A stretch of 64,000 bases of DNA from Mastigocoleus sp. MO_188.B34 (lineage in GTDB: Bacteria; Cyanobacteriota; Cyanobacteriia; Cyanobacteriales; Nostocaceae): the NCBI RefSeq assembly GCF_030065675.1, contig NZ_JASJDK010000003.1, forward strand, positions 1-64,000. Direction: 5' to 3'. Shown in pieces: positions 22,670-25,280 of this stretch; position 1 is the first letter of the stretch, and each line of letters begins with the position of its first letter. Position numbers and translations under genes: made by a program. The notes below the pieces were generated by a model. It worked only from the letters and a program-made list of their open reading frames with translations. It ran no database searches and was not told where the DNA came from.

Positions 22670-22837
22670 TTAAGAATTATGCTTGTCAGAGTCAAAGTCA
22701 ATTGAATCATCACTAGTGCCTACAACAGTACCGTTAAAAATGAGAAAGTCTTCAATCTTATCATTACCCAAAACCTGTGTTATGGATTCTACATTTCCAT
22801 GATTAGATAATGTTGGTTTTGTGTACTTTTTCTTCAT
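22670..22837 (-). CDS. Lasso peptide precursor (A), 55 residues
   Basis: A short gene read on the minus strand. Upstream of its ATG (22837) is AAGGAG at ideal spacing. The product begins MKKKYTKPTLSNHGNVESIT, with the leader recognition motif YxxPxL at residues 5-10, Gly14 and Thr20, the pattern bound by lasso RRE proteins. It continues through a variable segment (QVLGNDKIEDFLIFNGTVV) to GTSDDSIDFDSDKHNS at the C-terminus. The likely ring acceptor is Asp47, joined either to Gly40 (8-residue ring) or to Val39 (9-residue ring, which keeps Thr37 at the -2 position). The final residue is Ser55, a possible phosphorylation site for the neighbouring kinase. It lies between the cyclase and kinase genes. 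The precursor identity is strong; the core boundary is open. Confidence 0.88.
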   Translation of the reverse strand: MKKKYTKPTLSNHGNVESITQVLGNDKIEDFLIFNGTVVGTSDDSIDFDSDKHNS

Positions 22838-23009
22838 CAGAAAATCTCCTTTCCAAGTTAATGTTTAAGTTTGTTTTGCTTTCGCATACACCTCTGATGC
22901 TTGGACTTACGGTATAGCTAAATGATGGAAAATATATAAAAATCAGGGAAATAAGGCTAAAACCTGCCAAGAAATATTGATGATTGAAACTTGTTGAGAA
23001 TTACTATTT

Positions 23010-25280
23010 CTACGGTGAAACTTGTTTATGCTCTAGCCACAGGGCGAGAATTACCGTTTTCCAAACTGTCATACAATCCCGATCGCTTGCTTCTTTTCCT
23101 GCTGAAATTAGGCGATGATATGAATTTTCTAAAAAATCTATATTGATGTAATTTTCCAGGTTTTTTATTTGTTTCGACATTAATCGATCAAGGATTTGGC
23201 GATCGCGCACTAGCAAACCATCAATAAAGTTAGGTCCCAAATCTGCTTTTCCTCCACGCCATTGAACTTTTTCTGGCAAAATACCTGTTAAAGCACGACG
23301 CATTACTATCCGTCCAAAACCTCCAGCTAATTTTTGTTCTGCAGGTAATGCAAGACAAAATTCAATTAGCCTTTTATCCATAAATGGATGTCTTGCTTCG
23401 ATCGAAAACCTTGCAGCATATTGATCTATCTGTTCTAAGGTGTAAGCTAATATTCCTTGATTCAGGCTGCAGTAGTGTTCTTCTCTAAGATTGGTAAACT
23501 CTTTTCTAGAAGAACTTTGTTTTTGAATACGCTCTAATAAACCGATTCGACGGGCAAATTTTTCTTTAACTAAAGGATTAATAGATTTTTCTAAACTATC
23601 CTCGACGGAATTATCTACAACACTCAGATGAAGTCTTTTCAGCCAAAGTTTAGGGATAAATTTTGCTATTGGGTTAGTGATTGAATTTAATTTTGAGCTT
23701 AATCTTGAATTTAATATCAAATTAAATCTTGACTTTGATAGTAAGCTTGCAATAAAAGGCTTCACCCCATAACAAATAATTAATTGCTTACGCGAACCAC
23801 CAAACTCTTTGTGAATCTTCCCAACTACTGATAAAAAGGTGATCCAGCACCAATCTCGAGCTAAATTTTGGAGATATGATAAGCAATGGGTGCGAAATAT
23901 ACGGTAAGCTTCCCCATCGAAATGCTTACTAATAGCTTTAGATTCCTGAATACAAGTTTCCCATTTTCCTTGATAAGCCAGTTCGCTTAATCTTTTCGTT
24001 CCATGACTGACTGTAGTATCCCCATCAAAACCATCGAGACTAATTCGCAAGCCTAATTCATTAATCTTATGATTCAATTGCCAAGGATAAAAATGGGAAG
24101 GACCGAGTAAGGCTTCATCCTCATATTCAAAAATACTACTCAGATTTGATAAAGGACTAAACTGATCGCCTCGAACATAGTGGGGTATTACTCCTTCTTG
24201 TTCTAATACTGCGTTAATAAAAGGACGTTCATCACATTCAGTAACTTTGTCAAAAATACTCGATATTGTATGAAGTTTATTATCTGTAATTCTTTTATTA
24301 TCACCTTGAGAATCTTTCGTCTTAGTTAATAAATCTCGTGCAACACAAGTTACAGCAGACGAATCCAACCCTCCACTCAAATGGCTGATAATAGGAAAAG
24401 CACTACGCAAACGACAGCGTACAGCTTCTGTAAAAATCTTCTTAAACTCCCGAGCATATTCTTCTTCCGAGGATAATTTGATTTCTCTGTTACGATCAAG
24501 TTCCCAATATTGACGAATACAGATTTCATCAGTGGTGATAACCATACTATGAGCTGGGGGTAAACGCCAAATATCTTTGTAGGTGGCGATCGCTTTATCT
24601 TCCATCATCAATGCTAAATAGTCACCAATTCTAGTTTCATTAAGGCGACATGGAACTTGAGGAAGACACAAAAGAGCTTTGATTTCCGAAGCAAAAATAA
24701 AGATTTGGTCGGATTGATAATAATAAAAAGGTTTGACTCCAAAATGGTCTCTCGCACAAAATAGAGTCTGTTTGCATCCATCCCAAATTGCAAAAGCAAA
24801 GTCACCTATCAGATACTTCGGACAATCTTCACCCCATTTTTTGTAAGCTTCTAAAATTAACTGACTATCTGTAACTGGTTTTAAACAATAGTTGTTTTGA
24901 TTTATATTTTGATTTAATGGGCGATCGCTCAGGGAATCATAGCAGTCACCATAATTTTTAGGAAATTTTTCTGTTCCCTGTTCCCTGTTCCCCGTTCCCT
25001 TGGAACTATCTAAACTTAATTGAGAAATTAACTCTTCACGATTATCGATGCGCGCATCTGCTGCGATCGCTAAATTCCTAACTTGATCTACCAAAGGTTG
25101 TTTTTCAATCAGGGACTCCGGAGTTGTCCACAACATTCGATGTCCCAAACCAATACCTCCATCAATCCAGATATCTGTACCATCCGGTCCTCGATGGGCT
25201 AAAGTATCCAGCATCAAGACTAAATCTGCGCGGTCTAATAGCGAATTATCAAGGTACTTTATACCTGCAATGCCGCTCAT
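23010..25280 (-). CDS. Lasso peptide macrolactam synthetase (C), asparagine-synthetase-like
   Basis: Closes the isopeptide ring by adenylating the Asp/Glu side chain of the core. It resembles asparagine synthetase B: an N-terminal glutamine-amidotransferase-like domain (about 1-200), then the synthetase domain with the pyrophosphate loop SGGLDSS (302-308) and the C-terminal block EARHPFMDKRLIEFCLALP. The amidotransferase Cys2 is Ser (MSGIAG), so it cannot use glutamine, as expected for a cyclase. At 756 residues it is longer than typical lasso C proteins. About 40 residues (92-131) are an insertion partly made from a heptamer DNA repeat. It overlaps the B2 stop by four bases (ATGA), implying translational coupling. 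Confidence 0.9.
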   Translation of the reverse strand: MSGIAGIKYLDNSLLDRADLVLMLDTLAHRGPDGTDIWIDGGIGLGHRMLWTTPESLIEKQPLVDQVRNLAIAADARIDNREELISQLSLDSSKGTGNREQGTEKFPKNYGDCYDSLSDRPLNQNINQNNYCLKPVTDSQLILEAYKKWGEDCPKYLIGDFAFAIWDGCKQTLFCARDHFGVKPFYYYQSDQIFIFASEIKALLCLPQVPCRLNETRIGDYLALMMEDKAIATYKDIWRLPPAHSMVITTDEICIRQYWELDRNREIKLSSEEEYAREFKKIFTEAVRCRLRSAFPIISHLSGGLDSSAVTCVARDLLTKTKDSQGDNKRITDNKLHTISSIFDKVTECDERPFINAVLEQEGVIPHYVRGDQFSPLSNLSSIFEYEDEALLGPSHFYPWQLNHKINELGLRISLDGFDGDTTVSHGTKRLSELAYQGKWETCIQESKAISKHFDGEAYRIFRTHCLSYLQNLARDWCWITFLSVVGKIHKEFGGSRKQLIICYGVKPFIASLLSKSRFNLILNSRLSSKLNSITNPIAKFIPKLWLKRLHLSVVDNSVEDSLEKSINPLVKEKFARRIGLLERIQKQSSSRKEFTNLREEHYCSLNQGILAYTLEQIDQYAARFSIEARHPFMDKRLIEFCLALPAEQKLAGGFGRIVMRRALTGILPEKVQWRGGKADLGPNFIDGLLVRDRQILDRLMSKQIKNLENYINIDFLENSYHRLISAGKEASDRDCMTVWKTVILALWLEHKQVSP
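24971..25000. repeat. Heptamer tandem repeat inside the cyclase gene
   Basis: Four units of the heptanucleotide CTGTTCC/C (reading GGGAACA on the other strand) lie within the lasso cyclase reading frame and are translated as GTGNREQGTE at residues 95-104. Such short tandemly repeated sequences are a known intergenic repeat type of heterocystous cyanobacteria. Here the repeat sits in frame in a probable surface loop of the amidotransferase-like domain. Confidence 0.8.

Follow-up and report, generated by a model that had tools for sequence, protein, structure and literature searches.

A 55-codon minus-strand gene (A) in the stretch of Mastigocoleus sp. MO_188.B34 DNA analysed here (64,000 nucleotides, hereafter the window) is a real but ordinary member of the catalogued cyanobacterial lasso precursor family, and it resides among genes matching lasso biosynthesis proteins (Table 1). 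We consider it probable that the gene A product is a cyanobacterial lasso precursor that is cut between Gln21 and Val22 and closed into a Val22-Asp30 ring, with kinase, N and D steps included, to give a product with a predicted threaded fold. The ring therefore probably forms elsewhere than was proposed in an earlier note on this DNA.

The gene A product, MKKKYTKPTLSNHGNVESITQVLGNDKIEDFLIFNGTVVGTSDDSIDFDSDKHNS (55 amino acids plus stop, translated from the minus strand), scores 61.3 bits against the NCBIfam model NF033528 (lasso_cyano; cut-off 33, E 6.2e-17). Gene A is the sole match in the 7.48-Mb genome, both when its own sequence serves as the query (E up to 1) and when lasso_cyano does (E up to 1e-3). 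It is under purifying selection relative to its Mastigocoleus testarum BC008 orthologue (L064), with pS 0.36 and pN 0.038; five of the 55 residues differ, and amino acids 13-53 are identical. The family score, the sole genome match and the pS/pN contrast together argue against gene A being a chance frame. Against NF033521, the general model for lasso leaders, the product scored 17.5 bits, under the cut-off of 19 (17.9 in the genome-wide search). An Rfam search yielded no match within the window, and promoter and terminator scans returned 30 sites against 37.4 expected and 8 against 5.0 expected, respectively.

These results uphold much of the earlier note, which had described a 55-codon lasso precursor frame preceded by AAGGAG at Shine-Dalgarno distance, with a leader carrying YxxPxL, Gly14 and Thr20, amid a full set of biosynthesis genes. 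The frame and its upstream element are as described, residues Y5, P8, L10, G14 and T20 are all present, and the lasso_cyano score bears out the precursor identity. The note had also held the product to be new, which was an overstatement: lasso_cyano is already in NCBIfam, and a lasso cluster from the Nostocales has been published (PMC9332814, accessible part). Because NCBI has this curated model, genes of this family can be named there. The note's placement of the core from residue 39 or 40 is not supported, as set out below.

Table 1. Features of the gene A cluster, with positions in the window
Feature	Position	Strand	Basis
A, lasso precursor gene, 55 aa	22670..22837	minus	lasso_cyano score, reading frame, pN/pS contrast with Mastigocoleus testarum orthologue
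Shine-Dalgarno AAGGAG	22846..22851	minus	8 nt 5' of gene A ATG; kept in L064
Predicted leader, residues 1-21: Y5 (-17), P8 (-14), L10 (-12), G14, T20 (-2)	22775..22837	minus	register from PMC10368454 (accessible part)
Predicted core, residues 22-55 (34 aa)	22673..22774	minus	predicted from register and Asp tally
Asp30, predicted isopeptide acceptor, core position 9	22748..22750	minus	Asp at Thr+10 in 81/102; acid absent in 27/28 cyclase-less-cluster precursors
Ser45 of DSID (family GSxD motif), possible K target	22703..22705	minus	motif in 62/81 tails; putative target
B1, PqqD-like RRE protein, 106 aa	26141..26461	minus	PF05402 E 5.3e-20
B2, leader peptidase, 145 aa	25277..25714	minus	NF033537 97.5 bits, cut-off 33
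C, macrolactam cyclase, 756 aa, begins MSGI	23010..25280	minus	NF033535 972.9 bits, cut-off 525
K, HPr-kinase-like protein, 293 aa	21584..22465	minus	PF07475 E 6.4e-06, below Pfam cut-off
D, ABC exporter, 612 aa	19724..21562	minus	PF00005 E 5.4e-31
N, NTP_transf_5 (PF14907) protein, 382 aa	18299..19447	minus	E 6.6e-60

The genes lie in the order B1, B2, C, A, K, D, N, all on the minus strand, and Pfam and NCBIfam matches agree with the six assignments made earlier. Thus B1 (the RRE protein), B2 and C adjoin the precursor, with C and B2 both over NCBIfam cut-offs. B1 matches the lasso B1 structures 9x90 and 5v1u (TbiB1); it is below the cut-offs of the NCBIfam lasso PqqD models (69.5 against 80 for NF033536), though over the Pfam PqqD cut-off. 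Of 42 related loci examined, 41 encode a cyclase above 400 bits (the exception is L100), and two duplicated records (L064/L090 and L065/L082) reduce the set to 39 distinct clusters. Among those 41 loci, K is found in all, B1 in 40, and B2 and D (above 400 bits) in 39 each. N (above 150 bits) is found in only 27, and therefore looks optional. Ser2 of the cyclase is kept in 41 of 41; the MSGI start places this Ser where glutamine-hydrolysing synthetases have their catalytic Cys. The B1-B2-C-A-K-D order recurs across many of the related loci and is rearranged in some (L077, L088, L105 and L109).

In the published lasso leader register (PMC10368454, accessible part), Tyr, Pro and Leu occupy positions -17, -14 and -12, and Thr at -2 is the rule. 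Residues Y5, P8, L10 and T20 of the gene A product match this register exactly when Gln21 is placed at -1, which predicts cleavage between Gln21 and Val22, with Asp30 then ninth in the core; Thr20 would be penultimate in the leader only with this cut. Counted from Gly24 instead, Asp30 would be position 7, so that an acid falls at core position 7-9 with either start.

The conservation of Asp30 was tallied in 102 distinct precursors taken from the window and loci L002-L031, L037-L065 and L075-L114, a set that excludes L032-L036 and the nine non-cyanobacterial loci L066-L074. Members were selected by the pattern [YFW]xxPx[LIVMF] followed by a Gly or Asn, together with a Thr 15 positions past the Tyr, and thus their Thr is conserved by construction. 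Asp occurs ten residues after this Thr (Thr+10) in 81/102 precursors, which is not an unbiased rate because Asp30 is one of the 35 positions in the profile used to find the loci and because related rows are not independent. The figure is 81/95 without the cyclase-less family described below. At the next best offset, Asp or Glu occurs in 28/92, and no other offset reaches a third. A 21-row alignment (A1) had been hand-picked from Asp-bearing precursors, which makes its invariant D30 circular, and was hence left unused. The same Thr-to-Asp spacing is seen in those cyanobacterial precursors whose Gly1 start is obvious (L097, LTKGVGKGESLD, and its kin). A Val22-Glu29 ring was considered and rejected, as residue 29 is acidic in only 10/102.

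The 21 exceptions to Asp at Thr+10 are of several kinds. Six precursors (L002, one of L008, L011, L014, L062 and L106) have Asp at Thr+11, which would give a ten-residue ring in the Val22-type register. Two (L026) have the acid at Thr+9, six (L019, L020 and the second group of L114) have it at Thr+12 or later, and the seven that lack a ring acid all belong to the cyclase-less family. L119, which is kin to L019 and L020, has a cyclase and an acid at Thr+12/13. Precursors from these three loci read MNKKVWTAP...ITEQVKPKKLG(A/S)SDDFGV.GVSD(A/P), and their leader motif contains W; L019 and L119 encode both cyclase and K, and an acid 12-13 residues after Thr lies too far along for a ring of 7-9 residues when the usual register is applied. 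Across the set, predicted core residue 1 is usually hydrophobic (Ala, Ile, Val and others) and is Gly in only 7/102. Predicted cores span 24-54 residues, which looks long for lasso peptides. These two core features, like the exceptions above, speak against the Val22-Asp30 reading.

The main rival to a Val22 start, possible but in our view doubtful, starts a 32-residue core at Gly24 and closes a ring of seven residues between Gly24 and Asp30. Gly occupies the residue-24 place in 86/102 precursors, and a Gly24-type start would bring most Thr+11 precursors to eight-residue rings, inside the 7-9 range. Rings of seven residues are known from the xanthomonins (according to a paper title), and in PMC9332814 (accessible part) a Cyanocohniella product of 36 residues is depicted as starting with Gly. 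However, such a start would depart from the register of PMC10368454 (accessible part), with Thr moved to -4 and Tyr to -19, and the Gly is replaced by K, S, F, L, N, Q, D, P or A in 16/102. The core from residue 39 or 40 favoured by the earlier note would close a Gly40-Asp47 ring, which does have an eight-residue spacing and coincides with a conserved family motif, GSxD (62/81). Yet only 14/57 tallied tails have a Gly seven residues ahead of the downstream Asp, Asn replaces that Asp in some relatives (GSQN and GSVN in L091 and L102), and a 39-residue leader would be off register. Given that Asp30 is the common acid of the family, we rejected this core start as scarcely credible.

A further alternative, which we judge very improbable, is that the cluster is complete but its final peptide is linear or otherwise modified. 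Bacillota clusters for linear polyphosphorylated peptides combine an RRE, an HprK-like kinase, an NTP transferase and an exporter with no cyclase (PMC13381572, accessible part), and cyclase-less relatives occur in the same bacterial family as the window. In the window itself, however, a C gene accompanies the precursor and exceeds the lasso cyclase cut-off by a wide margin, and Asp30 is kept.

The cyclase-less relatives provide a natural comparison. Twelve loci from 12 genomes of this family (L116-L118 and L125-L133) carry a lasso-type leader, B1, K and two glycosyltransferases, and no cyclase match at E 1e-3 was found in any of the 12. The 11 loci uncut by a contig end (L130 is cut) also carry B2, an exporter, an NTP transferase and an epimerase match, weak in some. 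Precursors of this type occur in 13 genomes, and 12 of these lack a lasso cyclase over cut-off genome-wide; the remaining one (G101) has its cyclase in a separate cluster with its own precursors, and another of the 13 (G376, a 3.7-kb contig) is outside the locus-context set. The precursors, of the form MSQSENxKKNYSEPELKAHGKISGLTQQVGGSGGF..., have Ser/Thr-rich cores. From 29 frames at these loci, one spurious L129 frame (MPQLL...) was dropped, and 27 of the remaining 28 lack an acid at core positions 1-12, with one having Asp9; these are near-copies of each other and represent one evolutionary contrast, not 28. The acid is thus nearly always missing where the cyclase is absent, which agrees with Asp30 as the acceptor. 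These sister clusters resemble those for linear polyphosphorylated peptides, which are called restricted to Bacillota (PMC13381572, accessible part), but have the lasso B2 as the likely peptidase. They possibly represent a new cyanobacterial class of linear phospho- or glycopeptides.

K resembles HprK_rel_A (E 4.9e-10, below the NCBIfam cut-off), and a PDB search with K gave a best E of 0.14, with HPr kinase 1ko7 at E 0.47. Its His-Lys-Asp-Asp motif is present (H101, K122, D139 and D140) and is kept across the 41 loci (His in 41, Lys in 41, the first Asp in 39 with two Glu, and the last Asp in 41). Known targets of such kinases are the C-terminal Ser of paeninodin and pseudomycoidin (PMC9266682, PMC8498205) and core Ser3 in BsfA (PMC10368454) and LppA (PMC13381572), as given in the accessible parts of these papers. 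Neither was retained as the target here. A C-terminal Ser is not conserved family-wide, being Ser55 in the gene A product, Pro in L064, and Ser in 12/81 relatives; predicted core residue 3 is Gly in 86/102. A [GD]Sx[DN] motif occurs in 62/81 tails (shuffled mean 8.9, maximum 17), and we propose that its internal Ser may be the K target, while the motif may serve another purpose. The motif and a C-terminal Ser tend towards exclusion, with Ser endings in 3/62 tails that have the motif and 9/19 that lack it (Fisher p 5e-05, which overstates the case because rows are related). In a K tree of 43 clusters, the six without GSxD but Ser-ended cluster partly (4 changes against a shuffled mean of 5.8).

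Cys counts in the 81 precursor tails are either zero (41) or exactly two (40), and never another number, which suggests that half of these precursors may form a disulfide in the tail.

The closest systems differ from the gene A cluster in several respects. According to the accessible part of PMC10368454, the Bradymonas sediminis bsf cluster shares the A, B1, B2, C, D, K and N set and the YxxPxL register, but BsfA has Ile at -2, a Gly1-Asp8 ring and a phosphorylated Ser3, whereas the gene A product has Thr at -2 and Gly at predicted core residue 3. Paeninodin and pseudomycoidin share the HPr-kinase-like K, and pseudomycoidin also N; there K acts on a C-terminal Ser (PMC9266682, PMC8498205, accessible parts), which few cyanobacterial precursors have. 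The Cyanocohniella sp. LLY cluster shares a Nostocales precursor, C, B2 and B1, with an N-terminal Gly predicted and no K, N or D reported in the accessible part of PMC9332814.

In the preferred reading, B1 would bind the YxxPxL leader and carry the precursor to B2, which would cleave on the C-terminal side of Gln21, so that Thr20 takes its usual penultimate position. C would then link the Val22 amino group to the Asp30 side chain, yielding a nine-residue ring and a 25-residue tail. The calculated monoisotopic mass of the cyclised core is 3694.73 Da for this Val22 start, 3482.58 Da for a Gly24 start and 1720.68 Da for a Gly40 start, and one phosphate would raise each by 79.97 Da. K would phosphorylate the precursor, possibly at the internal GSxD serine instead of the last serine, N may, like PsmN in the case of pseudomycoidin, attach a sugar to this phosphate, and D would export the finished product. 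As a wider and rather speculative proposal, cyanobacterial lassos may typically be long-tailed, with a hydrophobic residue 1 and a nine-residue ring, their K acting on the internal GSxD Ser and N, where present, decorating the phosphate.

A contig scan with C found 11 loci, two of them cyanobacterial. Among 386 genomes drawn from the phylum, lasso_cyano matched in 19 at E 1e-3 and was over cut-off in 10. Seven loci (L089, L091, L092, L094, L097, L102 and L103) have three to five precursor genes arrayed per cluster. No isolated cyanobacterial lasso peptide was found in the accessible parts of the open-access literature searched, yet precursors are common, with lasso_cyano over cut-off in 63/217 genomes searched in the same family (78 at E 1e-4). 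Many filamentous cyanobacteria encode lasso products of this kind, and placing the ring on Asp30 would define the product masses to look for.
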